Source of the DNA: Terriglobia bacterium
Lineage (GTDB): Bacteria > Acidobacteriota > Terriglobia > Terriglobales > Acidobacteriaceae
Reading direction: 5' to 3'
DNA length: 45,065 bases
Assembly (NCBI GenBank): GCA_020073105.1
Contig: JAIQFW010000004.1
Coordinates: 1 to 45,065, forward strand
Shown in pieces: positions 1,832 to 16,236 of this stretch (within the stretch, counting starts at the first letter, position 1; each line of letters begins with the position of its first letter). The notes beneath the pieces were generated by a model. That model ran no database searches and was not told where the DNA came from. It saw only the letters and a program-made list of their open reading frames with translations. Both the position numbers and the translations under genes were made by a program.

Positions 1832-3310
1832 ATGCCCCTAAAAACTCTGTTTTTGAATCCACCCTCATTTGAGAATTTCGACGGAGGGGCGGGGTCTCGT
1901 TGGCCCGCGACCCGCGAGATCGAGTCATACTGGTATCCGGTGTGGCTGGCTTATCCTGCCGGAATGCTGGAGGGTGCCCGCCTGCTGGATGCTCCCCCGC
2001 ACCATGTTTCGGCCGAAGAAACCATCCAGATCGCCCGTGACTATGAGTTCCTAGTTCTGTTCACCAGTACGCCGGGCTTTCCTGGAGACATCCGGCTGGC
2101 GCACAAGATCAAGGAAGTTAATCCCAAGATCAAGATCGCCTTTGTCGGCCCGCACGTGACCGTGCTGCCCGAAAGGTCGCTCAAGGACTGCCCGGCGATC
2201 GATTTCGTGGTACGCAAGGAGTTTGATTACGCGGCGGTCGAGTTTGCTCAAGGCAAGCCTCTGGAAGAGATCCTGGGCATTTCCTACCGGAAAAACGGAT
2301 CGATCGTGCACACCCCCGATCGCGCGGAGGTTCAGGACCTGGATTCCCTGCCCCATGCGACCGATGTCTACCGGCGCGACCTGGACGTCACTCGCTACAA
2401 CGTGCCGTTCCTGCTCTACCCTTTCGTTTCGCTCTACACCACGCGCGGCTGCCCGGCGCAGTGCACCTTCTGCCTGTGGCCGCAGACCTTGAGCGGACAC
2501 CCCTGGCGTAAGCGGTCCACCGACGATGTGGCACGCGAGATGGCCAAGGCAAAACAATACTGGCCCAACGTGCGCGAGTTTTTCTTCGATGACGACACCT
2601 TCAATATTCAAGGGGCACGGACGATCGAACTCTGCTCGAAGCTCAAGCCGTTGAAGCTGACCTGGTCTTGTACCTCACGCGTCACCACAGACTACGAGAC
2701 CTTGAAGGCCATGAAGGAAGCGGGTTGCCGGTTGCTGATCGTGGGCTACGAATCCGGCGATCAGCAGATCTTGAAAAACATCAAGAAGGGCGCGACCATC
2801 GAGCGGGCACGCCAGTTCACCAAGGATTGTCATAAGCTGGGACTCGTCATCCATGGTGATTTCATTCTCGGGCTGCCCGGCGAAACTCGCGAAACCATCC
2901 AGAACACGATCCAGTTTGCTAAGGAGCTGGACGTGGAGACGATCCAGGTCTCTGTTGCCCACGCATATCCGGGGACCGAGCTCTATGACTACGCTGTGAA
3001 AAACGGCTTCATGGTGGCGGACAACAAGATGGTGGACGAGGGCGGGCACCAGTTGGCCCACATCCAATATCCGGGTCTGCCCGCGGAAGAGATATTGGAA
3101 TCAGTCCATCGTTTCTACGATGAGTATTACTTCCGTCCAAAGGCAGTCTTCCGCATCCTGCGGAAGGCCGCGTTTGACGGCGTCGAGCGCAAACGTCTGT
3201 ACAAAGAGGCGAAGTCCTTTTTGAAACTCCGCGCCACCCGGCATAAGTGGGTCAAGGAGAGACGCGAAAAGGAAGACTCCACCGCCGCAGCTGCACCGGC
3301 CAAGGCATAG
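1832..3310 (+). CDS. hpnJ: Hopanoid biosynthesis radical SAM protein HpnJ (B12-binding domain)
   Basis: A 492-aa protein with an N-terminal cobalamin-binding-like domain (about 1-150), then a radical SAM domain with the cluster motif GCPAQCTFC (Cys207, Cys211, Cys214). The N-terminal signature 'NPPSFENFDGGAGSRWPATR' and 'YPAGMLEGARLLDAPPHH' are characteristic of HpnJ. HpnJ is linked to bacteriohopanetetrol cyclitol ether formation, thought to be a radical ring contraction of the sugar-bearing hopanoid. The C-terminus (about 440-492) is basic and low in complexity. It stands alone on the + strand, followed by two small membrane proteins and facing the main hopanoid operon. The usual partners HpnI (glycosyltransferase) and HpnK (deacetylase) are not in the window. 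There is no clear ribosome site before the ATG. Confidence 0.93.
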   Translation: MPLKTLFLNPPSFENFDGGAGSRWPATREIESYWYPVWLAYPAGMLEGARLLDAPPHHVSAEETIQIARDYEFLVLFTSTPGFPGDIRLAHKIKEVNPKIKIAFVGPHVTVLPERSLKDCPAIDFVVRKEFDYAAVEFAQGKPLEEILGISYRKNGSIVHTPDRAEVQDLDSLPHATDVYRRDLDVTRYNVPFLLYPFVSLYTTRGCPAQCTFCLWPQTLSGHPWRKRSTDDVAREMAKAKQYWPNVREFFFDDDTFNIQGARTIELCSKLKPLKLTWSCTSRVTTDYETLKAMKEAGCRLLIVGYESGDQQILKNIKKGATIERARQFTKDCHKLGLVIHGDFILGLPGETRETIQNTIQFAKELDVETIQVSVAHAYPGTELYDYAVKNGFMVADNKMVDEGGHQLAHIQYPGLPAEEILESVHRFYDEYYFRPKAVFRILRKAAFDGVERKRLYKEAKSFLKLRATRHKWVKERREKEDSTAAAAPAKA

Positions 3311-3319
3311 GAAAACCGC

Positions 3320-3760
3320 GTGACATTTCGTAAGTATCTAGTGCTGGCTGGTGTGGCCGTATTTGCCGCTGTCGGCGATTGCCTGCTCTCTCTGGGCATG
3401 AAGCAAGTCGGCAGCATTTCCCTGCACCGCCTGCCGGAGATCGTCCTGACCGTCCTGAATCCCACGGTTGCGCTGGGAATTCTCCTGCTGCTGGGATTCT
3501 TCGCCTGCTACATGACGGCGCTTTCGTGGGCCGATCTGACTTACGTTCTGCCGGCGACCTCGGTCAGCTATATCCTGATTACGCTGATTGCAAGATTTTT
3601 CCTGCACGAGACCGTTAGCCTCGGCCGTTGGTTAGGGGTTGCCCTGATCTCGATCGGCGTGGGATTTGTCACCCTGGGCCCAGCGTTGACCCCCCACCCG
3701 CGGCAGGTGGAGTCGAATGACGCATTGGCGGTGCAGCTTTCCTCGGGGGCAGAGCCATGA
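3320..3760 (+). CDS. SMR/EamA-like four-helix membrane protein, first of a pair
   Basis: A 146-aa integral membrane protein with four hydrophobic segments (about 6-27, 47-68, 72-92, 100-118) and a hydrophilic C-terminal tail of about 25 residues. The pattern 'GDCLLSLGMKQVG' after helix 1 and 'LPATSVSYILITLIARFFLH' resembles small multidrug resistance and ArnE/ArnF-type half-transporters (DMT superfamily). The start is GTG, 9 nt after the hpnJ stop. Its end overlaps the next gene by ATGA. The two proteins share the motif GD-LLS--MKQVG and are clearly paralogues, so they probably work as a heterodimer. ArnE/F-type pairs flip lipid-linked substrates, which makes a role in moving a hopanoid or polyprenyl-linked sugar plausible but unproven. 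Confidence 0.82.
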   Translation: MTFRKYLVLAGVAVFAAVGDCLLSLGMKQVGSISLHRLPEIVLTVLNPTVALGILLLLGFFACYMTALSWADLTYVLPATSVSYILITLIARFFLHETVSLGRWLGVALISIGVGFVTLGPALTPHPRQVESNDALAVQLSSGAEP

Positions 3761-4137
3761 AGTCTATTTACGAATGGGGTGCAGTTGCAGCCATCGTACT
3801 GACTTCCACCGCTGGCGACGTATTGCTTTCGCGGGCCATGAAGCAAGTCGGGGATGTGGGACAACTTCGACGCCGCTCAGGTCTGCTGGCCGTCGTGGGA
3901 CGCGTGCTGCGCAATCCAAACTTCCCTCTCGGCATTCTGGCCATGGCCGTTGCCTTCTACAGCCTGCTTTTTGGACTGTCCTGGGGCGATGTGAGTCTGA
4001 TTGTCCCAGCCTCGACCTCTCTCACCTTCGTGACCAACGCACTGGCCGCCAAGATCTTCCTGCACGAGCGGGTGGACCAGCGTCGCTGGGTGGCGGCGCT
4101 GCTGGTGGCCGGCGGCGTGGTCCTCCTGGCTGCCTGA
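3757..4137 (+). CDS. SMR/EamA-like four-helix membrane protein, second of a pair
   Basis: A 126-aa membrane protein with four predicted helices (about 8-28, 50-70, 76-97, 105-124). It shares 'GDVLLSRAMKQVG' and 'PASTSLTFVTNALAAKIFLH' with its upstream neighbour (GDCLLSLGMKQVG; PATSVSYILITLIARFFLH), evidence of tandem duplication. The ATG overlaps the stop of the first gene (ATGA), so translation is coupled and equal amounts are expected, as for a two-subunit transporter. It lacks the hydrophilic tail of its partner. Only 16 nt separate its stop from the convergent hpnE stop. Family: drug/metabolite transporter superfamily. Substrate unknown. Confidence 0.82.
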   Translation: MKSIYEWGAVAAIVLTSTAGDVLLSRAMKQVGDVGQLRRRSGLLAVVGRVLRNPNFPLGILAMAVAFYSLLFGLSWGDVSLIVPASTSLTFVTNALAAKIFLHERVDQRRWVAALLVAGGVVLLAA

Positions 4138-4153: not shown

Positions 4154-5596
4154 TCATCCAAACAGCCGCATGAACCCCGCGGCCGGTAAGTCCGGCACCA
4201 GAAAAGCCGCTTCCCGCAGGCCAGCCAGCCGTGCGACGCGTTGGGCTGCCACGTAGCCGCTGCGCACTGCACCCTCCATGGTGGCGGGCCATCCTGTGGC
4301 GGTCCAATCTCCCGCGAGAAAGACGCGCGACCACGGCGTTTCAGCCGGCGGCCGGAAGGCATCCACGCCTGGGCGCGCAGAGTATGTCGCGTGGACTTCT
4401 TTGATGACCGTGGACTTCACCAAGTTTGCGTCGCGTGCCCCGGGCAAGAACTCGCGGAGTTCCTTCAAGGCAAGTTCAACAATCTCGGTCTTGGATTTTT
4501 CCACCAAAGACTTCGACGAACTGACGACCAGCTCGACGTAGCTGCCGTTTGCCCCAGGCGCTGAATCCTCGCCCTTGCTGGTACCCTCGGCGCCTTCACG
4601 TCCGAGCAGTTTGGACTTGTGGAACATCCACTGAATCGTCCGGTCAAGCAAGACCGCGTGTTCCAGATCAGTGATTTGGCGATCAAACCAAAAGTGGATA
4701 CCGGTGATGGGTGAAGTCTCGAATCTCCCCAGCGCGTGCCGCAGAGGCTCTGCTGCCGAAGTCTGGGGCAGGATACGGGACAGAGCATCGAAGGGAATGG
4801 CCAACACGGCAAAATCGAATGCCGTCTCCCGGCCTCCGACTAACAGCTTCACGCCGCCGGGTTCACCCCGGAAACACTCCACACCGCTGCGGAAGCAGAC
4901 CTCGCCTCCACGGCCGGTAATGTATTCTCCTGCAACACCATACAGATCGGTCAAGGGTACAGTTGGTACTCCCATCCGGCCGGCGGAAGCAGATTTCAAA
5001 AAAGATTCACGGACGACCTGGGCAGCATAGGGCACGGAAATCCGGTCGAGGTCTTCGTTAAGCGCGCTTACCAGGATGGTCTTCCAAAAGCGGTCGATGG
5101 CCCGCTCGGTTTGTCCATGACGACGCAACCAGGTGAGAAATGACTCGCCAGAATCCCGCGGCGTGGTGGGCGCCAACGCGGCCATGGCGGCGGCAATCGC
5201 CAGCTTATCTTGCAGGTGCAGGCAGGCAGCACGCAAGAACGCGGGGCCGCAATGGAGTGGCGCGGGCAACGCCGACGGTTTTATCACTGAAGCCCGGCCG
5301 CCAGGTTCAAGAAACGTCAACCGGTCAAACCAGCGGATCTTCCGCTCGACTCCGACCCGCTTATAGAACTGGATCAGATTCGTGCAACACCCCAGCAGCA
5401 CATGCTGGCAATTGTCCACCACTTCACCGGTGCCGGGGTGCTGGTACGACGAGGCGCGACCGCCCAAATAAGGGCGGCGTTCAAAGAGGGTTACGCGAAA
5501 TCCACTGTCCGCAAGCGCGCACCCGGCTGCCAGGCCGGCCAACCCTCCTCCCACAACCGCCACCGTGGGAGCCTGTGACGAGGTTCCGGCCATCAC
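4154..5596 (-). CDS. hpnE: Squalene-associated FAD-dependent desaturase HpnE
   Basis: A 480-aa flavoprotein of the phytoene-desaturase-like amine oxidase family. The N-terminal dinucleotide fold has GGGLAGLAAG at residues 16-25, followed by 'GGRASSYQHPGTGEVVDNCQ', the typical HpnE/desaturase segment. The C-terminus has the FAD-closing motif 'FLAGDWTATGWPATMEGAV'. HpnE reduces hydroxysqualene to squalene, the last step of the HpnCDE route from farnesyl diphosphate. The start is GTG at 5594-5596, overlapping the hpnD stop (GTGA); the next codon is ATG, and either could be used. It is the last gene of the minus-strand hopanoid operon and converges on the SMR pair. Confidence 0.94.
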   Translation of the reverse strand: MMAGTSSQAPTVAVVGGGLAGLAAGCALADSGFRVTLFERRPYLGGRASSYQHPGTGEVVDNCQHVLLGCCTNLIQFYKRVGVERKIRWFDRLTFLEPGGRASVIKPSALPAPLHCGPAFLRAACLHLQDKLAIAAAMAALAPTTPRDSGESFLTWLRRHGQTERAIDRFWKTILVSALNEDLDRISVPYAAQVVRESFLKSASAGRMGVPTVPLTDLYGVAGEYITGRGGEVCFRSGVECFRGEPGGVKLLVGGRETAFDFAVLAIPFDALSRILPQTSAAEPLRHALGRFETSPITGIHFWFDRQITDLEHAVLLDRTIQWMFHKSKLLGREGAEGTSKGEDSAPGANGSYVELVVSSSKSLVEKSKTEIVELALKELREFLPGARDANLVKSTVIKEVHATYSARPGVDAFRPPAETPWSRVFLAGDWTATGWPATMEGAVRSGYVAAQRVARLAGLREAAFLVPDLPAAGFMRLFG

Positions 5597-6543
5597 GCGA
5601 GACGCTTCATGAAGCCCCTGGCTAGAATGCCGAGCTTCTCCCGCACTGTTAGGCTGACCTTACTGGAGAAAACGTCGTACTGGCGGAGTGCAATTTTGTC
5701 CAGCAAGCGCCGATAAATGGTGACCAGAACCCAGAGCGCCGGTTGGCTATCTTCGTCAATGAACCGGACCAATTCGTCTCCAGCGCGGTAGTATTCACGC
5801 GCACGGTCGGTTTCCATTGCCAGCAGCGGGCGTAATCTCGCGGGGTCAGGAGGGGAGCGCAACTCTAGCGGTGAAATTCCAAACCTCGCCAGATCCTCTT
5901 CCGGCAAGTAAACCCGCCCCATCGCCGCGTCTTCTTTCACGTCACGAATGATATTGGTCAGCTGAAAAGCCAGGCCGCAACGCTCGGCCAGCGGTTCTGC
6001 GGCCGGGTCGCGATAACCGAAAATACGAATGCAAACCAGGCCCACGACGGATGCGACCCGGTAGCAGTACAGGCGAAGGTCCTCGAAAGTGCGGTAGCGG
6101 ATCAGGGCCGTTGACTCTGCAGTTTCGCACAGCAACAGGTCCTCGACGTCGACATCGACATCCATCTCCGTTCCATAGGCCAGCTGATCCAGGAGTTCGA
6201 CAGGGATGTTGTAACGCCGTTGTGCGTCAGCCAAGGCCAGCAAAATCGGATCATCGGTGGGTTGCCCAGCCAGGGTTCGATGAACTGCCTCCAGCCAAGA
6301 CGTTATCTCTTGTCGTCGCTCGTGGAAAGGCAGCGTGGCATCATCGGCGATGTCATCACAACGCCGCATGAAGGCATAGACAGCACACAGGGCCTGTCGT
6401 TTTGGCGTCGGCAGGACCAGGAACGCGTAGTAGAAATTCTTGGCCGCTGCCCGCGTAATGTGGCGGCACACCGAGTATGCAACCGCGAGTTGCGATTCGG
6501 TAGGGGCGAAGGGTGCTGGAGCGGGCTGCACGGCGGCGCTCAT
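5593..6543 (-). CDS. hpnD: Presqualene diphosphate synthase HpnD
   Basis: A 316-aa trans-isoprenyl diphosphate synthase (squalene/phytoene synthase family). Both Asp-rich motifs are present: DDIADD (Asp63/Asp67) and the second at Asp201/Asp205 in 'NIIRDVKED'. HpnD condenses two farnesyl diphosphates to presqualene diphosphate. It is flanked by its pathway partners hpnC and hpnE and overlaps both (ATGA with hpnC, GTGA with hpnE), so the three are translationally coupled. The order C-D-E is the one seen in most bacterial hopanoid loci. Length is usual for the family. Confidence 0.94.
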   Translation of the reverse strand: MSAAVQPAPAPFAPTESQLAVAYSVCRHITRAAAKNFYYAFLVLPTPKRQALCAVYAFMRRCDDIADDATLPFHERRQEITSWLEAVHRTLAGQPTDDPILLALADAQRRYNIPVELLDQLAYGTEMDVDVDVEDLLLCETAESTALIRYRTFEDLRLYCYRVASVVGLVCIRIFGYRDPAAEPLAERCGLAFQLTNIIRDVKEDAAMGRVYLPEEDLARFGISPLELRSPPDPARLRPLLAMETDRAREYYRAGDELVRFIDEDSQPALWVLVTIYRRLLDKIALRQYDVFSSKVSLTVREKLGILARGFMKRLA

Positions 6544-7487
6544 CGCAGCTTACCCCACGCCGCGCGGGCCAGCAGGGCCAATTTACGCGACCTGGAAAGG
6601 GACGGTCTCCGGCCAAGCACGCAGTACCCCTGACGCTCGATCGCCCTGAGGATCTCCTGCCCACCCCGGCTGAACAATTCAATATCGATGGCCAGCTCGC
6701 GGGTGACCTTCTTAGCCAGTGGCAGGCCACTCTGGAACCATTCGTGTGCCCGGTCTACCTCGAACCGCATCAGGTCCCGGAACGCCGGAGTGTTCTGCTG
6801 CGTCGCAATATCACCTTCGCTTGCACCGAAACGTCGAAGGTCCTCCAAGGGGAGGTATACGCGGCCTTTGGCGTAGTCTACGCTTACGTCCTGCCAAAAA
6901 TTCGCCAGCTGCAGGGCGGTGCAAGTGAAATCGGAAAGCCCCTGGCGTTCGGCATCACGATAGCCGCAAACATAAAGCACGAGATGGCCTACAGGGTTGG
7001 CAGAATACCGGCAGTAGCCGAGCAGATCGCTGAATGTGGGATACCGCGTAACCGTTTGGTCTTGGCGAAACGCTGTCAACAGGTCAACAAACGTTTGCTT
7101 CGGAATCTCGAAGCAGCGGACGGTTTCGGCGAGCGCGACGAACACCGGATGGCGGGGACTGCCTTCATAGCATGCCTCCAACTCGGCTTCCCACTGGCCG
7201 AGCAGCTGCAGAGAGACGCGTGGGTCTCCCACCTCGTCTCCCAAATCGTCCGAGATCCGGCAATATGCGTAGATATTGAAGAAATGCTGTCGCAGCCGTT
7301 GGGGAAGAAACCAGGTTGCCACCGAGAAATTCTCGTAGTGGGTGCGTGCCAGCCTGCGGCAATACTGCTGGGCCTCTTCCGCCGTGGGCGCCTGGTCGGG
7401 AATGGCATACTCGGGCGGAAGACGCAACCAGCCTGCCAAGGCAGGAGAAACAGCAGTCCGGGACTCGTTGCTGGCAATGGATGACAT
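6540..7487 (-). CDS. hpnC: Hydroxysqualene synthase HpnC
   Basis: A 315-aa squalene/phytoene synthase family protein, paralogous to HpnD. The first Asp-rich motif is DDLGDE (Asp80/81/84) and the second is 'FWQDVSVD' (Asp200/Asp204). The FWQD signature and preceding 'YCRYSANPVGHLVL' are typical of HpnC rather than HpnD. It converts presqualene diphosphate to hydroxysqualene. It lies 33 nt downstream of a dehydrogenase gene and overlaps hpnD by ATGA. A long open frame on the opposite strand (6513-7484) is a shadow of this high-GC gene. Confidence 0.93.
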   Translation of the reverse strand: MSSIASNESRTAVSPALAGWLRLPPEYAIPDQAPTAEEAQQYCRRLARTHYENFSVATWFLPQRLRQHFFNIYAYCRISDDLGDEVGDPRVSLQLLGQWEAELEACYEGSPRHPVFVALAETVRCFEIPKQTFVDLLTAFRQDQTVTRYPTFSDLLGYCRYSANPVGHLVLYVCGYRDAERQGLSDFTCTALQLANFWQDVSVDYAKGRVYLPLEDLRRFGASEGDIATQQNTPAFRDLMRFEVDRAHEWFQSGLPLAKKVTRELAIDIELFSRGGQEILRAIERQGYCVLGRRPSLSRSRKLALLARAAWGKLR

Positions 7488-7520: not shown

Positions 7521-8570
7521 CTAGTGCCCGGGAATGATTGCGGTCTTGATATCGCCGTTGCGGTTCAGCATGTGGCGAAGGACCTGTTGCAAACGGGAAA
7601 GCGGTGCTTCGCCGGTAATGTAGTCGGTGGAACGAATCTTCTTCTCGGCGATCAGAGCAAAAGCCTTTCGTACGGTCTCCGGGGTGTGATGGAAAGTCGC
7701 TTTGAGCGTGACTTCTGAGTAGTGGAGCCGGTTGGTGTCCAGCTGCACCTTGGTACCGCTGGCGCATCCCCCAAAAAAGTTGACGGTGCCGCCCTTGCGC
7801 ACCATGTCGATGGCCCACTCCCATGCCTCGGGACGGCCCACGGCCTCGATCACTACATCGCCGCCGCGTTTCTCCGGCGAGAGCATGCGCACCGCGTCAA
7901 CCGGGTCCTTGACCTTGGTGATCTGGACCACCTGGTGGGCGCCCATTTGCTTGGCGGCGCTGACTTGGGAATCACGCTTGACGACCGAAATGACCTTGCA
8001 ACCAACCGCGGTGGCGACCTGGACAAACATCAGACCGATGGGTCCGCCTCCGATGACGGCCACGGTATCGCCGATCTCCACTCCGGTCTCGTGCAGACCG
8101 CGGAGCACGCACGCCAGAGGTTCCACCATCGCCGCCTCTTCAAAGGTCACATCCGAGGGGATGGCTAACATGTTGCTCTCGACGATTCGCCGCGGAATGC
8201 GGATGTATTCGGCATAGGCACCGTTGTTAAAGAGCAAATCCTCGCACAGGTTTTCCTGATGGCGGGAACAATAAAAGCACATCTGACACGGCGCCGAATT
8301 CAGCGCCACCACTCGCATTCCCTTGCGGAAGCTGCGGACTCCGGGGCCCACCTCCTCGATCACGCCGGCCAGTTCGTGCCCAAACAAAGCCGGCGGGACA
8401 ATCATGCGCGCGTGGTAGCCGCGCTGGTAGACCTTGAGATCGGTGCCGCAGGTCAGTGCGACCTGTACCTTTACCAGTACCTCCCCCTCACCCAGGCGTG
8501 GGATAGGCACCTTTTCAATCTTCACGTCCTCTTTGCCATAGAGGACGGCTGCTGTCATCTTTCCGTTCAC
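7521..8570 (-). CDS. Zinc-dependent medium-chain alcohol dehydrogenase, hopanoid-operon member 1
   Basis: A 349-aa medium-chain dehydrogenase/reductase. Catalytic zinc ligands are in 'TCGTD' (about Cys39) and 'FGHE' (about residues 63-66). The structural zinc site CQMCFYCSRHQENLC (Cx2Cx2Cx7C) is complete. The Rossmann motif is 'VIGGGPIGLM'. The enzyme should oxidise an alcohol or reduce an aldehyde/ketone with NAD(P)H. It starts at GTG overlapping the stop of the next dehydrogenase (GTGA), with a GGAGGAAG ribosome site. It sits between hpnG and hpnC in one tightly packed operon, so a role in hopanoid side-chain chemistry is a reasonable inference. Its substrate cannot be read from the sequence; sorbitol or threonine dehydrogenase-like folds are the nearest general class. 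Confidence 0.85.
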   Translation of the reverse strand: MNGKMTAAVLYGKEDVKIEKVPIPRLGEGEVLVKVQVALTCGTDLKVYQRGYHARMIVPPALFGHELAGVIEEVGPGVRSFRKGMRVVALNSAPCQMCFYCSRHQENLCEDLLFNNGAYAEYIRIPRRIVESNMLAIPSDVTFEEAAMVEPLACVLRGLHETGVEIGDTVAVIGGGPIGLMFVQVATAVGCKVISVVKRDSQVSAAKQMGAHQVVQITKVKDPVDAVRMLSPEKRGGDVVIEAVGRPEAWEWAIDMVRKGGTVNFFGGCASGTKVQLDTNRLHYSEVTLKATFHHTPETVRKAFALIAEKKIRSTDYITGEAPLSRLQQVLRHMLNRNGDIKTAIIPGH

Positions 8571-9706
8571 TCTGAACTTCCTCCCCAGCCGCTGCCCGCT
8601 TGAATCACAACTTTCATCGAATCCGCTTGGGGATGGGCCGCCAGGTTCAAGGCCTCTACGCTGCTGGATAATGGAAAGCGGTGGCTGATAAGTTTTTCCA
8701 AGTCCATTTCACGGCCCATCACGAACCGCACCGACTCCTTTTGCAACTCGACGGAAGCGCTATAAGACCCCACTAGTGTCTTCTCATCGACGCAGACGGC
8801 CGCCGGGTCGATACTCGTCTCCCCACGCGCTGTCTGAGCAAACAACAAAACCCGTCCCCCGGGTCGCACCGCGTCCATGGCGGCCCGGACCAGGCCATTG
8901 CTTCCGACGGCGAGAATGGCAGCGTCGGCGCCGCGGCCTTCGGTTTGCTCCCGCACCGCCTTGACCGTATCGGTGCGAGACGCGTCAATCATGTTCGGTA
9001 AGCCGAATGATGCTGATATTGTAAGCCTCCGGGGATACAAATCGGAAGTGATTACCCTAGTTCCTGCCCGTTTGGCCAATGTACTCAATATGATGCCAAT
9101 CGGCCCCTGACCCATCACTAGAACAACCTCACCAGGCGAAAGTTGGAGCCTCTCGATACCTTTCATGCAGGTATTCACCGGTTCGACAAAACACGCCTGC
9201 TCGAACGAAACTCCCTCGGGAATCCGCACCGTGCCTTGTCGCACAATCCAGTCCATCACCCGGACGTATTCCGCGAATCCTCCACCGGCCGGTTCGAATC
9301 CGGCGGTGCATCCGACCTTCTTGTAAGTCTCACATTGAGCAAAAGTCTTGTGTTGGCAATAGAAGCATTCTCCGCAGGGGATGTGGTGGAAGAACACAAC
9401 CCGGTCGCCGGGTGTGAATCCAGGCACGTCGGAGCCCACGGCGGCCACCACACCCGAGGTTTCGTGTCCGAAGATGCGCGGCGCAGAGTGCGAGCCGGTG
9501 GCGATCTTCTTCAAGTCGGTCCCGCAGATGCCGCAGGTATGCACCCGCACGAGCAGGTCACCGGGTCCAATCTGCGGTACTGGCACGCTCTCCAGGCGCA
9601 CGTCATTTACACCCCGATACACCGCTGCCTGCATGGTGGCGGGGATCCGTTTCCGCTGCTCTTCGATTGCGATTGGTCCAGCGATTGCCATCCCGATGTC
9701 AGTCAC
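8567..9706 (-). CDS. Zinc-dependent medium-chain alcohol dehydrogenase, hopanoid-operon member 2
   Basis: A 379-aa medium-chain dehydrogenase. It has 'CGICGTD' and 'FGHETSG' for the catalytic zinc, CGECFYCQHKTFAQC (Cx2Cx2Cx7C) for the structural zinc, and 'VMGQGPIGII' for the nucleotide. It is related to but clearly divergent from member 1, so the two may act on different steps or form a hetero-oligomer. The GTG start overlaps the hpnG stop (GTGA), giving direct coupling to the enzyme that makes the ribosylhopane aldehyde-type intermediate. About 24 residues precede the family core (which begins 'MQAAVYRGVNDVRLE'), so an internal ATG could also serve as start. Exact substrate unknown. Confidence 0.85.
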   Translation of the reverse strand: MTDIGMAIAGPIAIEEQRKRIPATMQAAVYRGVNDVRLESVPVPQIGPGDLLVRVHTCGICGTDLKKIATGSHSAPRIFGHETSGVVAAVGSDVPGFTPGDRVVFFHHIPCGECFYCQHKTFAQCETYKKVGCTAGFEPAGGGFAEYVRVMDWIVRQGTVRIPEGVSFEQACFVEPVNTCMKGIERLQLSPGEVVLVMGQGPIGIILSTLAKRAGTRVITSDLYPRRLTISASFGLPNMIDASRTDTVKAVREQTEGRGADAAILAVGSNGLVRAAMDAVRPGGRVLLFAQTARGETSIDPAAVCVDEKTLVGSYSASVELQKESVRFVMGREMDLEKLISHRFPLSSSVEALNLAAHPQADSMKVVIQAGSGWGGSSE

Positions 9707-10419
9707 TGTGTCAGAAGCTGCTTTTCCGAATCCGCGTGTTGCAGCACCTTCGGCTCAGCCAGCGCCTCACAAAGCTTGGCCGCCGCCATAGCACTGTCTT
9801 GCGCCAGCCGAAACAACCTACCCCAAAGCCAGGGTCGCAGCACAACATGAGCAAGAAGCCGTAGTGGGTAGAAGCGCCCGTCGCTTCCAACAAAGCGCAT
9901 GATGGGCAGCATGCGAGAATCACTGGCGTCGGAGATGACCTTGCAGGCCAGGAACTTCACTCCGTGCGCCTCCGCACAACGCGCCACAGCCGCAGCTTCC
10001 ATGTCCACTGCTTGAGCGCCAAAAGCCTTGCCCAGCTTAGCTTTCTGCTTGATATCGGCAACATTCTGAAAACTGACCAGCACGCCATGGCCGAAGGCAT
10101 GTTCCGTGCGGCTGCCGTCGTCGGCATCAATCACATGCTGCGGAATCAAGGTGTCGCCCGCTCGCAAACTTGCATCGAGCCCGCCGGCAAAGCCTGCGGA
10201 AATGATAAGCGCGGGGTGATACAAGGTGAGAATCGCCTCAGCAGCGCGCCGGGCCGCTTCGGCGCCGATACCTCCGCATACCAGCGCCACCCCGTCTTTC
10301 TCAAAGAACTTGAACCAGCGTTCGTCGTGTTGCCGGCGGTGAACCGGCCAGTCCTTGACCAACGGCCAGACCTCCCGCTCGAGCGCGGCCACAACCCCGA
10401 CTTTGCACGAATCTGGCAA
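9703..10419 (-). CDS. hpnG: Hopanoid-associated nucleoside phosphorylase HpnG
   Basis: A 238-aa protein of the purine nucleoside phosphorylase/MTAN superfamily. Visible features are 'VGVVAALEREVWPL' at the N-terminus, the Gly-rich ribose/phosphate loop 'CGGIGAEAARRA', 'ISAGFAGGLDASLRAGD', and the active-site segment 'AVDMEAAAVARCAEAHG', where the Met-Glu pair binds ribose. HpnG removes adenine from adenosylhopane. It starts with TTG, preceded by CAGGAA at a workable distance; no ATG lies nearby upstream of the conserved N-terminus. It lies 49 nt downstream of hpnA and is coupled to dehydrogenase 2. Confidence 0.92.
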   Translation of the reverse strand: MPDSCKVGVVAALEREVWPLVKDWPVHRRQHDERWFKFFEKDGVALVCGGIGAEAARRAAEAILTLYHPALIISAGFAGGLDASLRAGDTLIPQHVIDADDGSRTEHAFGHGVLVSFQNVADIKQKAKLGKAFGAQAVDMEAAAVARCAEAHGVKFLACKVISDASDSRMLPIMRFVGSDGRFYPLRLLAHVVLRPWLWGRLFRLAQDSAMAAAKLCEALAEPKVLQHADSEKQLLTQ

Positions 10420-10468: not shown

Positions 10469-11455
10469 CTACGCATACCCGTTGGCCTGGAACCATTCCA
10501 CCGCGCGGCGCAAGGCGCGGTCAACCGGCACCTGTTTCCATCCCAGCTCACGCTCGGCCTTGGCCGATGACACGAACATCTTCTTACGCCCCATGCGAAC
10601 CGCGTCAATCGTGGCTCGCGGTTCTCGACCCAGAATACGCCCCGTGACCATTTCATCGACAACACCGGTGGCTAACGCCATTACGTAAGGAACCCTGATT
10701 CTTGGCGAAGGCAGGCCCGTAATCGTGGCGAGCTTGTCGAGGATCTGCTTAAGCGTCAGGTTCTCTCCGCCCAGAATATAGCGCTCACCGCTTCTTCCCT
10801 TCTCCAGTGCCGCCAGGTGACCACGGGCGCACTCCGCGACGTCCACCAGGTTCAGCCCTGTGTCCACGTAAGCGGGAAATTTCTTCTTCAGAAAATCCAC
10901 GACAATTCGCCCGGTTGGGGTCGGCTTGATATCCCTCTCTCCCACCGGAGTTGATGGATTCACCACGACCACATCCATCCCGCCCCGGCCCGCTTCGATG
11001 GCTACTTGCTCAGCCATGAACTTCGATCGCTTATAGGGGCCGATCATGTTCTCCAGGGACACCGGCGAACTTTCGTCTGCCAGGTGGCCATTCGACGAAA
11101 ACCCCATCGTCGCCACACTCGAGGTGTAAACCACCCGGCGCACCGCATTCTTGCGAGCCGCGTCCAGAATAGCCTGCGTTCCGTAAACATTGGCGCGGTA
11201 CATTTCCTCGGGATCAAGCACCCACAGGCGATAGTCAGCGGCAACGTGGAAGACTACCTCACAACCTGCCATCGCCTTCTCAATCGAAACCGGGTCGCGC
11301 AGATCACCGACGGCATGTTCCGCCTTCAGTGACGCAATGTTGCGGAGGTCACTGCTGGCACGAACCAGCAACCGGAGGTCGGCGCCTTGCTCGGCCAGAA
11401 CCCGAGCCACGTGGCTTCCCACGAATCCGGTCGCGCCTGTGACGAAAGCAAGCAT
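10469..11455 (-). CDS. hpnA: Hopanoid-associated sugar epimerase HpnA
   Basis: A 328-aa extended short-chain dehydrogenase. The N-terminal NAD(P) motif is TGATGFVGSHVAR (about 6-18). The catalytic triad region is seen as 'YTSSVATMG' (Ser) and 'GPYKRSK' (Tyr-x3-Lys). 'NPSTPVGERDIKPTPTGRI' is the HpnA family signature. HpnA proteins occur in most hopanoid loci, but their reaction is not firmly assigned; it is annotated as a dihydroflavonol reductase-like or epimerase enzyme. The ATG has no ribosome site: the bases just upstream belong to an inverted repeat (11458-11532) that separates this gene from the upstream unknown gene. Confidence 0.92.
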   Translation of the reverse strand: MLAFVTGATGFVGSHVARVLAEQGADLRLLVRASSDLRNIASLKAEHAVGDLRDPVSIEKAMAGCEVVFHVAADYRLWVLDPEEMYRANVYGTQAILDAARKNAVRRVVYTSSVATMGFSSNGHLADESSPVSLENMIGPYKRSKFMAEQVAIEAGRGGMDVVVVNPSTPVGERDIKPTPTGRIVVDFLKKKFPAYVDTGLNLVDVAECARGHLAALEKGRSGERYILGGENLTLKQILDKLATITGLPSPRIRVPYVMALATGVVDEMVTGRILGREPRATIDAVRMGRKKMFVSSAKAERELGWKQVPVDRALRRAVEWFQANGYA

Positions 11456-11457
11456 TT

Positions 11458-11532
11458 GGGCTTTCGGCTGTCAGCTTTCAGCCATCAGGTTTAAGCCTCT
11501 TGCTGAAAGCCGACGGCTGAGAGCTGAAAGCC
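11458..11532. repeat. Intergenic inverted repeat of the GCTTTCAGC type
   Basis: The gap between hpnA and its upstream neighbour is made almost entirely of dyad-repeated units. The left arm (11458-11483) reads GGGCTTTCGGCTGTCAGC then TTTCAGCC. The right arm (11502-11532) carries GCTGAAAGCC, GGCTGAGAGC and TGAAAGCC. The arms would pair as an imperfect hairpin around a loop of about 18 nt. The element begins 2 nt before the hpnA ATG and ends 1 nt before the stop codon of the neighbour. It resembles dispersed intergenic repeats I associate with acidobacterial genomes; copy number cannot be judged from this window. Confidence 0.75.
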
Positions 11533-11533
11533 G

Positions 11534-11968
11534 CTATTCCAGTTTCTCCGGCTGCAGCGAGATGTCGCTTTCTCCTGCGGTCTTCTTCTCCCAGTAATGC
11601 TGGACCCACGCCTCCCAGCTCTTGCCTGCGGCCATGTCTCGCCCGGTGAACGCCAGGGCTGCGATTTCGCCGTAAGCGATAGCCAGCTTCGGGCCGCCAT
11701 CTTTGGGCAAGAGGCGCACCAGGCTGTCCGCCAGCCCGCGGCCGCGGCGCCGATCGAAGACGTAGCCTTCGATCTTGGTGCCGTCCTTGCGAGTGATCTG
11801 GACATCTCCGCGATAATCGAAAGCCCGCTCGAGGGCAGTACGGAGTTCTTCGGGCGTGGCCAAGTCTGGCACCCAGCCCTCCAGCTTTTCGCGGGCTGCG
11901 CCAGGCGCGACTTCCAATGTGTCGGGGTCACTCTCGGTAGGCGTATGACCTGCTTCTCTTCCACTCAA
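11534..11968 (-). CDS. Unknown 144-aa protein coupled to hpnH
   Basis: A soluble, charged 144-aa protein without signal peptide or membrane helix. The middle (about 50-105) looks like a small beta barrel: 'YRGDVQITRKDGTKIEGYVF' followed by 'KLAIAYGEIAALAFTGRDMA'. The C-terminus is acidic and polar. I do not recognise the family. The beta-strand pattern faintly resembles that of the protein at 42484-42963. Its TTG start overlaps the hpnH stop (TTGA), so it is translated from the same message, between hpnH and hpnA. That placement suggests a role near the adenosylhopane step, for example as an accessory or regulatory protein, but nothing in the sequence shows a catalytic site. Confidence 0.75.
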   Translation of the reverse strand: MSGREAGHTPTESDPDTLEVAPGAAREKLEGWVPDLATPEELRTALERAFDYRGDVQITRKDGTKIEGYVFDRRRGRGLADSLVRLLPKDGGPKLAIAYGEIAALAFTGRDMAAGKSWEAWVQHYWEKKTAGESDISLQPEKLE

Positions 11969-13086
11969 ACTGCCGTCTCCTCGGGTGCGTGGCTCTCAAT
12001 CTGTACCAGCGGATTGGACGAATGAACCGGACGGGCCGGCTCCTCTAACAATCGCAGTGCGGCAGGATCCTCGTATCTATTGGATACCATCGCTCGAACT
12101 GTTTGCCACAAGCCACTGACCGAACTAAAAGTGTGATTCACCGCTGAGGCCTCGTAGCCGCTGTGTACCATGCAGTTCGCGCACTTCGGGTTACCGGATT
12201 CGGTGCCGTAGCGAGCCCACTCGGTAGTCTCCAATAGCTCCGTAAACGTGTCCGCATAGCCGTCCTGCAGCAGGTAACAGGGCTTCTGCCAGCCGAACAC
12301 ATTGAATGTCGGCATGCCCCACGGGGTGCAGGGGTAGTCGTGCTTGCCCATGAGGAATTCCAAAAATAGCGGCGACATATTGAACCGCCAACCTGGTTTG
12401 CGGTTTGAGAGAATTCCGCGAAACAGCCGCCGGGTGCGGGCACGGCCCAGGAAATGGCTCTGGTCGGGTGCTTTCTCATAAGAGTAGCCCGGAGAGAGCA
12501 TCATTCCTTCGACGCCCAGGTCCATCATCTCGTCAAAGAAGGCGCGCACGCTCTTGGGATCGGCGCCGTCAAAGAGTGTGGTATTGGTAGTGACCCGGAA
12601 CCCGCGTGCCAGTGCCTCTTTGATGCCTTCCAGCGCCTTGTCGTATCCGCCATCCAGGCATACAGAAAAATCGTGGTGTTCACGCTGCCCGTCCATGTGG
12701 ACGGAGAAGGTCAGGTACTTGCTGGGCTTGAACAGATCGATCTTCTGCTTGAGAAGCAGCGCGTTCGTACACAAATAGATGTACTTCCTGCGCGCGACCA
12801 GACCTTCAACGATTTCCCCAACTTGGGGGTGCAAAAGAGGCTCACCGCCGGGAATCGCAACGGTGGGCGCGCCACATTCATCCACTGCCCGGAAGCACTC
12901 CTCGGGCGTGAGCTGCATTTTCAGAACGTGGGCGGGATATTGGATCTTTCCACAACCGGCGCAGGCCAGATTGCAGCGGAAAAGCGGCTCCAACATCAGG
13001 ACAAGGGGATATTGCTTGCGCCCCTTGAGCTTCTGCCCGAGGACATAGGTTGCCACCGTCCACATCTGCGAAATCGGTACCGCCAT
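11965..13086 (-). CDS. hpnH: Adenosylhopane synthase, radical SAM protein HpnH
   Basis: A 373-aa radical SAM enzyme. The cluster motif is CNLACAGC (Cys38, Cys42, Cys45). 'PGGEPLLHP' is the SAM-binding GGE motif. A C-terminal cysteine set 'NPKCANCMVHSGYEASAV' is typical of HpnH. HpnH joins the 5'-deoxyadenosyl radical to diploptene, giving adenosylhopane, the first step of side-chain building. Start ATG 'MAVPISQMWTV' agrees with the family; a GGAG lies rather far upstream. It is separated from shc by 117 nt that contain a dyad repeat, and overlaps the following unknown gene by TTGA. Confidence 0.95.
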   Translation of the reverse strand: MAVPISQMWTVATYVLGQKLKGRKQYPLVLMLEPLFRCNLACAGCGKIQYPAHVLKMQLTPEECFRAVDECGAPTVAIPGGEPLLHPQVGEIVEGLVARRKYIYLCTNALLLKQKIDLFKPSKYLTFSVHMDGQREHHDFSVCLDGGYDKALEGIKEALARGFRVTTNTTLFDGADPKSVRAFFDEMMDLGVEGMMLSPGYSYEKAPDQSHFLGRARTRRLFRGILSNRKPGWRFNMSPLFLEFLMGKHDYPCTPWGMPTFNVFGWQKPCYLLQDGYADTFTELLETTEWARYGTESGNPKCANCMVHSGYEASAVNHTFSSVSGLWQTVRAMVSNRYEDPAALRLLEEPARPVHSSNPLVQIESHAPEETAV

Positions 13087-13123: not shown

Positions 13124-13211
13124 CTTTAGCACTTAGCAGTTAGCCCTGAGACCGCTCCGCAACTCAACTGAAATCCCTACGACCCAATGCTAAGTGCTAA
13201 ATGCTAATTGC
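13124..13211. repeat. Intergenic dyad repeat of TTAGCA-type units between hpnH and shc
   Basis: The left cluster (13124-13144) contains TTTAGCACTTAGCAGTTAGC. The right cluster (13189-13211) contains the reverse-complement units GCTAAGTGCTAAATGCTAAT. The 13-mer TTTAGCACTTAGC at 13125-13137 has a perfect inverted copy at 13189-13201. Units of 7-8 nt are repeated within each arm. The right arm runs into the end of shc: the TAG stop (13204-13206) and the last codons are made of repeat units. The loop between arms is about 44 nt. Confidence 0.75.
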
Positions 13212-15171
13212 TGTTTCTCCCCGCCATCACCTTCTTGTAGGTGGTCAACGCAATCAGCGGGAAGTACTGCCGATACATGTGATACATGAGGTAAAACACG
13301 CGTGGGAAACCGGTCCCGGTGCAATAAAACTCGTCCCAGGAACCGTCTCTTTTCTGGGTACGGAGCAGATAAGCGATTCCGCGCGCCACACAGTCGCTGC
13401 GAGTATCCTGCGCGGCCAGCAAACCCAGTACGGCCCAAGCCGTTTGCGACGGCGTGCTCGGTCCGACGCCTCTGGCGGTTGGATCGTCGTAAGAACCGCA
13501 ACTTTCCCCCCAGCCACCGTCCGGATTCTGCACCATGCGCAACCACTCCGCGGCTTGCTGAACGTAAGTCTCGTGGTGGTCCACGCCAATCGCTTCCAGG
13601 CCACGCAGAACCAGCGTGGTTCCGTAGATATGGTTGACACCCCAGCGGCCAAACCAAGAACCGTCCGCTTCCTGCTCATCCCGGATGAACTTGATAGCCT
13701 TCTTTACCGCCGCATGGTTCTTGTCGTACCCGTAGGCTGCGAGCATCTCCAGCATCCGCCCGGTGATGTCCACCGTTGCCGGATCGAGCATGGCGTTGTG
13801 GTCGGCAAACGGAACGTACTGGAAGACCATGCGGTCGTTGTCCTTGTCAAACGACGCCCAACCCCCGTTCCTGCACTGCATGGAGAGCATCCAGTCGATC
13901 GCCCTCTGCACCGACTCGCGCTGGTAACGTCCGTTGGGATGCTCCACCTGAGCTAAGGCCAGGCAGACCATGGCGCTGTCATCCACATCCGGGTAGAACT
14001 CGTTGTTGAACTCGAAGTACCAACCTCCGGGCTGTCCCTTCTTGTTCTTCACCTGCCAATCACCCGGGGTGCGGACCTGCTTCTGCAAAATCCAGTCTGC
14101 ACACTTGACCATTCGAGGATCGTTGCCCGGTACGCCACTTTCGCCCAAGGCAAACAGCGCGTATGCCGTATCCCAGACCGGGGACTTGCAGGGCTGCATA
14201 CGGAAGGTGTCGCCCTCTTCAATTCCTAGTTTCTCGAACTCATCCATGGCCCGGATGACCTGCGGGTCGTCGACCGAGTACCCCAGGCAGCGCATGGCGA
14301 CCGCGGAGTTCACAATCGACGGGTAAATCGCCCCCAAACCATCGCTCATCTCGAAACGCTCGAGCATCCACTTCTCGGCTTTCTTCAACGCGATGGAGCG
14401 CAGCGGACGAATGTGCACGGCTTCGAACCAGTGCACCAGGCGGTCCAGGCACAAGAAGAAATTGCGCCACGAGATCAGCTTCTTGGACCAATGCAGGTGC
14501 CTGCGGGACTTGTCGCGCCCGCCGACAAAAAGCTCCTCACTACCCATTTCGTCGGGGATCTTCTTAAAGGGTTTCTTCGCGTAGCAGATCGACAGTGGCA
14601 CCAGGATGGCCCGCGACCACGAGGAAATCTCGTAGATATTGAACCAGAACCAGCTGGGAAACAGCACGATTTCCGGTGGGATGGCCGGGACGGCGTCGTA
14701 GTCGTATTGCCCCAGGAAGCACAAGTAGATCTTGGTGAAGGTGTTGACCTCAGTAACGCCGCCCATTCCCAGGATCGTCTCGCGTGCCCGTATTAAGACC
14801 GGATGGTCCGCCTTATAACCTGCCAACTTCAGACCGAAGTACGCCTTGACCGAAACGCTGACGTTGGACGGTCCACCGATGTAGGCCCCCCAACCGCCGT
14901 CGTCATTCTGGTGGCGAAGGATGTAGTTTGCGCACTTCTGGAAGCGCGCGTGATCCACCGTACCCAGCAGCGTGTGCAGCAGGACGTAGTCGGATTCCAA
15001 GGTGGTGTCGGCTTCCAGCTCGCCACACCAGTAGCCCTCTTCGTGTTGCTGGGAGAAAAGATTCTTACGAGCACCATCGATGGCGGCCGCCACCCGGCTG
15101 GCCAGATCATCGATCTTGCCGAAGCGCATCTGCGGGGCAGAAGCAGGAATTGGGGAAGAGGCGTCGTCCAT
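13204..15171 (-). CDS. shc: Squalene-hopene cyclase
   Basis: A 655-aa class II triterpene cyclase. The catalytic acid motif DVDD (Asp395-Val-Asp397-Asp398) is present in 'YPDVDDSAMV'. Several QW motifs (Q-x3-G-x-W) are visible, e.g. 'QHEEGYWCGELE', 'RHQNDDGGWGAY', 'QCRNGGWASFD', 'EQEADGSWFGRWG', 'QNPDGGWGESC' and 'QKRDGSWDE'. It cyclises squalene to hopene/hopanol at the inner membrane, anchored by a hydrophobic patch. Length is normal. The ATG is 9 nt after the ispH stop, so both lie on one message. The last residues (Asn-Ser-Asn) and the stop codon fall inside a dispersed dyad repeat, so the C-terminal end may have been redefined by repeat insertion. Confidence 0.96.
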   Translation of the reverse strand: MDDASSPIPASAPQMRFGKIDDLASRVAAAIDGARKNLFSQQHEEGYWCGELEADTTLESDYVLLHTLLGTVDHARFQKCANYILRHQNDDGGWGAYIGGPSNVSVSVKAYFGLKLAGYKADHPVLIRARETILGMGGVTEVNTFTKIYLCFLGQYDYDAVPAIPPEIVLFPSWFWFNIYEISSWSRAILVPLSICYAKKPFKKIPDEMGSEELFVGGRDKSRRHLHWSKKLISWRNFFLCLDRLVHWFEAVHIRPLRSIALKKAEKWMLERFEMSDGLGAIYPSIVNSAVAMRCLGYSVDDPQVIRAMDEFEKLGIEEGDTFRMQPCKSPVWDTAYALFALGESGVPGNDPRMVKCADWILQKQVRTPGDWQVKNKKGQPGGWYFEFNNEFYPDVDDSAMVCLALAQVEHPNGRYQRESVQRAIDWMLSMQCRNGGWASFDKDNDRMVFQYVPFADHNAMLDPATVDITGRMLEMLAAYGYDKNHAAVKKAIKFIRDEQEADGSWFGRWGVNHIYGTTLVLRGLEAIGVDHHETYVQQAAEWLRMVQNPDGGWGESCGSYDDPTARGVGPSTPSQTAWAVLGLLAAQDTRSDCVARGIAYLLRTQKRDGSWDEFYCTGTGFPRVFYLMYHMYRQYFPLIALTTYKKVMAGRNSN

Positions 15172-15180
15172 GAAGTCTGC

Positions 15181-16158
15181 TTACTCCGCGGTGACTCCGG
15201 CAGGGGCGCTGGCGATGGCCTCCACAATCTCGGGAGGCAAGCCAAAACGCACGTTCTCGGGCATGACTTCGACTTCATTCACGTTGTCGAAACCCTTGGT
15301 AGCAAGAAACTTGACCACTTCTTCCACCAAGCACTCCGGCGCCGAAGCTCCCGCCGTGAGGGCAATGGTTTTCACATCCTCCAGCCATTCTGCTCGGATG
15401 TTGCGGAAACTGTCGATCAGATGCGAACTCGTACCCAGGTTGCGCGCCACTTCCACCAAGCGGTTAGAATTCGAACTGTTGTCCGAGCCTACCACCAGCA
15501 GCAGGTCAGCTTCCGACGCCACCTGCTTCACCGCCTCCTGGCGGTTTTCCGTGGCGTAGCAGATGTCCTGGGCATGGGGACCCTGAATGTTGGGGAACTT
15601 GCGACGGAGCGCGGCAATAATATCTTTAGTTTCGTCGAGACTCAAAGTGGTTTGCGTCAGGTAAGCGACCCGGTCGGGATCAGGCAAGGTCAGTGATTCG
15701 ACCTGCTCCGGCGAACCTACGACCTGGGTGACCAGGGGGGCCTCACCCAGCGTTCCGATGACCTCGTCGTGGTCGCGGTGACCGATCAAGATCAGGGAAT
15801 AGCCTTCCTTGGCGAATTTCACGGCCTCGACGTGGACTTTGGTGACCAGAGGGCATGTGGCGTCGATGACGCGCAGTTTTCGGGTTTCGCTGGCTTCGCG
15901 TACCTCGGGCGAAACTCCGTGAGCGCTGTAAATCACGCGCTCGCCATTGGGGACCTCGTCCACACTGTCGACAAATATGGCGCCCTTGGCCTGCAATTCT
16001 TCTACCACGAAGCGGTTGTGAACGATCTCCTTGCGCACGTAGATGGGTGGCCCGAAGGCTTCCAAAGCAATGCGCACGATATCAATGGCCCGCACCACCC
16101 CAGCGCAGAACCCCCGGGGCTTCAATAAAAGCAGCGTTTTGCCGTCACCATTTGGCAC
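15181..16158 (-). CDS. ispH: 4-hydroxy-3-methylbut-2-enyl diphosphate reductase IspH/LytB
   Basis: A 4Fe-4S enzyme for the last MEP pathway step, making IPP and DMAPP that feed the adjacent squalene/hopane genes. Family marks: 'PRGFCAGVVRAI' (first cluster Cys), 'VIYSAHGVSPEV', 'DATCPLVTKVH' (second Cys), 'LTQTTLS', 'GSDNSSNSNRL' and 'GASAPECLVEE' (third Cys). The frame is open to a TTG at 16236, but that TTG lies in a promoter-like sequence and has no ribosome site. The GTG at 16156-16158, with AGGA 8 nt upstream, gives an N-terminus of normal length before PRGFC, so I prefer it. First gene of the hopanoid operon. Confidence 0.93.
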   Translation of the reverse strand: MPNGDGKTLLLLKPRGFCAGVVRAIDIVRIALEAFGPPIYVRKEIVHNRFVVEELQAKGAIFVDSVDEVPNGERVIYSAHGVSPEVREASETRKLRVIDATCPLVTKVHVEAVKFAKEGYSLILIGHRDHDEVIGTLGEAPLVTQVVGSPEQVESLTLPDPDRVAYLTQTTLSLDETKDIIAALRRKFPNIQGPHAQDICYATENRQEAVKQVASEADLLLVVGSDNSSNSNRLVEVARNLGTSSHLIDSFRNIRAEWLEDVKTIALTAGASAPECLVEEVVKFLATKGFDNVNEVEVMPENVRFGLPPEIVEAIASAPAGVTAE

Positions 16159-16207
16159 GATAAAGTTCCTGTAAGGGTACACTTCCCCACTATGGTTGTA
16201 TGCATAA

Positions 16208-16236
16208 AGCTTACCTGAAAGAACCACGTTGGTCAA
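16208..16236 (-). promoter_or_regulatory. Candidate promoter of the ispH-hopanoid operon
   Basis: On the minus strand TTGACC (16236-16231) is followed after 17 nt by TAAGCT (16213-16208), which keeps the three most conserved -10 positions. Transcription would begin near 16200, about 42 nt before the preferred GTG start of ispH. It lies in the gap after recN. Confidence 0.35.

Follow-up and report, generated by a model that had tools for sequence, protein, structure and literature searches.

Hopanoids are bacterial sterol-like lipids. The window, the whole 45,065-nucleotide (nt) stretch of Terriglobia bacterium DNA analysed here, is a contig (JAIQFW010000004.1) of a 5.14-Mb genome assembly; its minus strand carries the run ispH-shc-hpnH-orf-hpnA-hpnG-DH2-DH1-hpnC-hpnD-hpnE (Table 1). 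DH1 and DH2 denote two adjacent genes for zinc-dependent dehydrogenases, which keep their place in the hopanoid operon across related acidobacterial families and are good, testable candidates for the missing enzyme that would complete the sugar-derived tail of the lipid. The pathway to lipid biomarkers in wide use still has a gap where ribosylhopane is reduced to bacteriohopanetetrol. The enzyme for this step was not established as of 2025 (PMC12583986), which bears out the statement, in an earlier reading of this DNA (the original prediction), that the reductase lacks a firm assignment in most bacteria. In subdivision 1 acidobacteria, Sinninghe Damsté et al. (2017) described two genes of unassigned function, ug1 after hpnA-hpnG and ug2 before hpnC; ug2 encodes a zinc-binding alcohol dehydrogenase of about 350 amino acids (aa) (PMC5462960).

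The two dehydrogenases and their locus

DH1 and DH2 are members of the zinc-dependent medium-chain dehydrogenase/reductase (MDR) superfamily. Both exceed the Pfam cut-offs for ADH_N and ADH_zinc_N, and they share about 34% identity. The catalytic zinc ligands of DH1 are C41/H65/E66/E150 and its structural lobe is C95/C98/C101/C109; DH2 has equivalents. The original prediction that both proteins keep the two zinc sites and the nucleotide motif is confirmed and extends to their orthologs: among 65 DH2 and 46 DH1 sequences the zinc ligands vary little or not at all, and the GxGxxG motif is conserved across orthologs. The sole zinc-ligand variation is a change of Cys41 to Asp in two otherwise intact DH1 orthologs (L033, L071). 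The predicted structures (pLDDT 90.3 and 91.4) match the folds of polyol, threonine and alcohol dehydrogenases, with Foldseek E values of about 1e-32 to solved members.

The 4-nt GTGA overlaps at the hpnG/DH2 and DH2/DH1 junctions and the 33-nt gap between DH1 and hpnC, all described previously, agree with the coordinates of the open reading frames (ORFs). The exact overlaps hold only if translation begins at the GTG codons. An ATG lies a little further into each gene (Met6 in DH2, Met5 in DH1), residues 1-17 of DH2 are mostly of low confidence in the structure model, and ortholog matches mostly start at residue 6 or beyond; translation may therefore truly begin further downstream, by up to about 15 nt or more. 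The tight linkage of the two genes holds whichever start is used.

Table 1. Features of the hopanoid locus, with positions counted from the first nucleotide of the window
Feature	Position	Strand	Basis or remark
hpnJ, radical SAM protein of the cyclitol-ether branch	1832-3310	+	convergent with the operon
ArnE/ArnF-like (EamA/SMR) transporter, half-size	3320-3760	+	weak NCBIfam match
ArnE/ArnF-like (EamA/SMR) transporter, half-size	3757-4137	+	weak NCBIfam match
hpnE	4154-5596	-	482 bits, cut-off 283
hpnD	5593-6543	-	best family HpnD, slightly below cut-off; name leans on context
hpnC	6540-7487	-	TIGR03464, 350 bits, cut-off 250
DH1, zinc-dependent MDR dehydrogenase, 349 aa, GTG start	7521-8570	-	Pfam; position and size of published ug2
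DH2, zinc-dependent MDR dehydrogenase, 379 aa as called, GTG start	8567-9706	-	Pfam; position of published ug1
hpnG, hopanoid-associated nucleosidase/phosphorylase	9703-10419	-	TIGR03468, 114.8 bits, below curated cut-off of 187.1; name leans on context
hpnA, hopanoid-associated short-chain dehydrogenase/reductase (SDR), 'sugar epimerase'	10469-11455	-	506 bits, cut-off 368
Small ORF between hpnH and hpnA	11491-11964	-	no Pfam match; position of published ug3
hpnH, adenosylhopane synthase (radical SAM)	11965-13086	-	541 bits, cut-off 225
shc, squalene-hopene cyclase	13204-15171	-	773 bits, cut-off 431
ispH	15181-16236	-	profile match

The true frame of the small ORF in the hpnH-hpnA gap is unsure; a competing frame at 11534-11968 likewise has no Pfam match.

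Association with hopanoid genes in Acidobacteriota

The named DH2 loci are the best 80 from a contig scan, and all of them belong to Acidobacteriota. DH1 follows DH2 in 80/80; because this order recurs throughout, the arrangement is not due to chance. The next recognised gene before DH2 is HpnG at 63 of the 80 loci; among the remaining 17, the contig breaks off at four, and at 13 HpnG is not recognised there. Among 61 relatives, strong DH2 orthologs (E <1e-100) occur in 39/41 HpnH-positive and 0/20 HpnH-negative genomes. Across 297 genomes of the phylum, counted without phylogenetic correction, HpnH and DH2 occur together in 42, HpnH only in 34, DH2 only in four and neither in 217; DH2 is thus in 42/76 HpnH-positive against 4/221 HpnH-negative genomes, and DH1 is present in all 46 genomes that have DH2. 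Two of the four genomes with DH2 and without HpnH (G169, G264, G274 and G335) are incomplete (G264, G335), and three carry other hpn genes beside the DH2-DH1 pair (G169, G264, G335). In this lineage, DH1 and DH2 are very probably genes of the hopanoid pathway. The proposed tie of the pair to hopanoid loci thus stands within Acidobacteriota, in gene order and in co-occurrence; it is not shared by the non-acidobacterial clusters examined.

The linkage to hopanoid genes outlasts rearrangement and tells the two genes apart. Several genera of the family to which the window belongs have a split cluster, with hpnA-hpnG-DH2 apart from DH1-hpnCDE; DH1 lies directly before hpnC-hpnD-hpnE in 9/9 split-cluster regions fetched, and a tenth region (G059) shows DH2-DH1. 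Family f37 has the order hpnA-DH2-DH1-hpnD. Family f8 has hpnA-hpnG-DH1-hpnC without DH2 at four loci (G056, G352, G354, G355), and a DH2 ortholog is found in 0/7 f8 genomes, only two of which are at least 90% complete. The DH2-less hpnG-DH1-hpnC family and the different partners that DH2 and DH1 keep on cluster splitting are new here. DH1 is the more widely kept partner and DH2 is more tied to hpnG; since f8 keeps DH1 alone, the two genes are not equivalent. Linkage by itself is insufficient to choose between them as the reductase. Two genomes considered as cases of loss of the pair together with hpnG were withdrawn: G008 because it also has no match to hpnA, hpnG or hpnC, so that the whole block is missing, and G326 because hpnA sits at a contig end.

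Cofactor signatures and the proposed side-chain role

In NAD-dependent enzymes beta-2 usually ends in an acidic residue; in NADP-dependent ones there are usually basic residues and no acid. In DH2 this position (Asp222) is Asp in 64/65 sequences and Glu in one. DH1 has no acid at the site (VVKR); residue 198 is Lys or Arg in 43/46 sequences and residue 199 is Arg or His in 44/46. DH2 is therefore predicted to be NAD(H)-type and DH1 NADP(H)-type, which gives adjacent genes opposite predicted cofactor signatures; the predicted site of DH1 suits a reductase. The substrate pockets also appear to differ. FHH is invariant in DH1 and SYS in DH2, and the Arg-Tyr near the substrate of human sorbitol dehydrogenase aligns with His-His in the former and Tyr-Ser in the latter. 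As both residue pairs are invariant, this suggests a fixed substrate fit that differs between the two enzymes. These cofactor and pocket readings are inferred from the sequences and from general knowledge of the MDR family.

Acidobacteria of subdivisions 1 and 3 make a functionalised C35 tail, as all strains tested yield bacteriohopanepolyols; the degradation method used cannot separate bacteriohopanetetrol from its composite derivatives (PMC5462960). We propose, with a probability of about 0.4, that DH1 and DH2 have a lineage-specific redox role in the side chain once HpnG has acted, and that of the two DH1 is more likely to be the enzyme that reduces ribosylhopane to bacteriohopanetetrol with NADPH. 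The pair would have been recruited to the side-chain pathway in one branch of Acidobacteriota. HpnH would add a 5'-deoxyadenosyl group to hopene and HpnG would remove adenine to release free ribosylhopane, which may open to the C-35 aldehyde. DH1 would then reduce this aldehyde with NADPH to give bacteriohopanetetrol; its zinc would polarise the carbonyl, and where enzymes of the sorbitol dehydrogenase family have their relay residue, DH1 may use the conserved Thr43. DH2, as a putative NAD-type enzyme, would most likely act on the same polyol or aldose side chain in an accessory or opposing role, by reversible oxidation of a hydroxyl or aldehyde. DH1 is preferred as the reductase because it is more widely kept and has a predicted NADP-type site. 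The substrate, the direction and the division of labour are what we infer; the gene order, conservation, co-occurrence, intact zinc sites and opposite cofactor signatures are observed. The original prediction that one or both dehydrogenases carry out the side-chain reduction survives in part: the genes are tied to side-chain genes and DH1 is of NADP type, but the solution is not general and the two genes are not equivalent. Culturable acidobacteria offer a way to test the question, with two conserved candidates of predicted cofactor type and with families that keep one gene or neither.

Several observations weigh against the proposed role. The co-occurrence counts ignore shared ancestry. G274, which is rated complete, carries DH1 and DH2 without an HpnH match. 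DH2 is absent from 34 of the 76 HpnH-positive genomes, most of which also lack DH1; HpnH- and HpnG-positive genomes of f34, f35, f50, f56, f57, f65, f79 and f87 have no close orthologs of either gene. No DH2 homolog above 35% identity is found among the plasmid matches listed, although 31 plasmids carry hpnH, and the three annotated non-acidobacterial hopanoid clusters examined, from Roseomonas, Streptomyces and Mycetohabitans, contain no such pair. In split clusters DH1 keeps its place beside the squalene genes hpnCDE and could thus serve another step; a published competitor is HpnA, an SDR that accompanies HpnG in Acidobacteria; and a distant, adjacent DH1-like/DH2-like pair lies outside hopanoid clusters in f34, f41, f54, f69 and f86, in HpnH-positive and HpnH-negative genomes alike.

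Since many HpnH- and HpnG-positive families and the non-acidobacterial clusters lack the pair, another enzyme must exist in these producers. The pair is not the general solution of all bacteria, and non-orthologous replacement is possible. This patchy distribution, also new here, weighs against universality, not against ribosylhopane reductase activity. Among the neighbours of hpnG in pair-less families there is no clear aldehyde reductase; those seen are HMG-CoA reductase, GHMP kinase, a decarboxylase, an FMN-dependent dehydrogenase-family protein and SQS/PSY. In the HpnH-positive, pair-less genome G116 (L076), HMG-CoA reductase, decarboxylase and GHMP kinase lie beside hpnG. An FMN-dependent dehydrogenase-family protein is within the hpn cluster both in G116 and in G128 (L196), which is likewise HpnH-positive and pair-less.

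The distant pairs (L184, L186, L187, L188, L198, L199) group with DH1 and DH2 in the tree, with weak support on the DH1 side (90/47) and a thin outgroup. Comparison of their contexts reveals no shared neighbours. The occurrence of such pairs outside hopanoid clusters hints that the two-gene module predates its hopanoid role, or else that the likeness is a general one. The opposite cofactor signatures are kept in the f41, f86 and f69 copies; both members of the pair look NAD-type in f34 and f54.

Opposite, conserved signatures in neighbouring genes might also indicate an opposed couple: a side-chain hydroxyl would be oxidised by DH2 with NAD+, and the resulting ketone reduced again by DH1 with NADPH. 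The outcome would be an inverted stereocentre, such as C-34, or a keto or isomer bacteriohopanepolyol, and another enzyme would reduce the aldehyde. Ketose and polyol dehydrogenases are among the relatives of DH1 and DH2, and both 34R and 34S bacteriohopanetetrol are known in bacteria; however, f8 keeps DH1 without DH2, and no stereochemistry of acidobacterial bacteriohopanetetrol was found; we consider this reading unlikely. That a dedicated NAD+/NADPH-opposed couple, recruited from an older two-gene dehydrogenase module, remodels the polyol tail by stereo-inversion or to a keto or isomer bacteriohopanepolyol seems quite improbable; if true, it would be a tailoring step without known genes. 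It is also unlikely that HpnA is the ribosylhopane reductase and that the zinc dehydrogenases modify or recycle something else. HpnA has been suggested for this reduction (PMC5462960) and is near hpnG in many acidobacterial families, with or without the zinc dehydrogenases.

A role of DH1 and/or DH2 outside the side chain, such as a redox reaction connected with squalene/C30 supply or with an unrelated metabolite whose genes travel along in the operon, would fit the position of DH1 directly upstream of hpnCDE in split clusters, the published linkage of ug2 to hpnCDE (PMC5462960) and the paired relatives in non-hopanoid contexts. It is nevertheless rather improbable: the path to squalene is already complete with HpnC, HpnD and HpnE, DH1 directly follows hpnG in f8, and DH2 remains with hpnA-hpnG. 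Action of the pair on a cyclitol head group together with HpnJ was rejected as the principal role and is highly improbable. The nearby hpnJ gene and the best NCBIfam match of DH2, scyllo-inosose 3-dehydrogenase IolM (NF041097), point this way, but the match (171.3 bits) is far below the cut-off of 450, and f41, f86, f34 and f87 genomes have HpnJ without close DH1/DH2. This role is disfavoured because f37 genomes keep the pair and HpnH without HpnJ. The use of HpnJ distribution as a test of the pair is new here.

Two ArnE/ArnF-like genes follow hpnJ in the window. Both are downstream of hpnJ in 29/33 loci with room to tell, including the distant f41; they are a candidate flippase for glycosylated or cyclitol-ether hopanoids.

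Comparison with known systems

DH1 and DH2 match no curated function; at about 170 bits, their highest NCBIfam scores fall well short of cut-offs that exceed 450. L-threonine 3-dehydrogenase (TIGR00692; 169.6 and 153.7 bits, cut-off 458.35) and IolM (154.3 and 171.3 bits, the latter for DH2, cut-off 450) are the best-scoring curated MDR families, but neither dehydrogenase is a member of them. The closest solved sequence to DH1 is 1e3j, an NADP(H)-dependent ketose reductase, which shares with DH1 the loss of the NAD-selecting acid. The ketose reductase/sorbitol dehydrogenase structures 1e3j and 1pl6 have the zinc MDR fold and the catalytic zinc ligands in common with DH1 and DH2, at less than 30% identity.

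Bodlenner et al. reportedly detected a ribosylhopane reductase activity in an extract of Methylobacterium organophilum in 2015. This would be the same reaction as that proposed for DH1; the enzyme was not named.

DH2 agrees with ug1 in position, and DH1 agrees with ug2 in position and as a zinc dehydrogenase of about 350 aa, an identification made by position and description, locus tags not being compared. The gene association has been known since 2017 (PMC5462960), while the proposed role has not; the cofactor split and the recognition that ug1 is also a zinc dehydrogenase are new here. If the proposed role of DH1 is true, different lineages have solved ribosylhopane reduction with unrelated enzymes.
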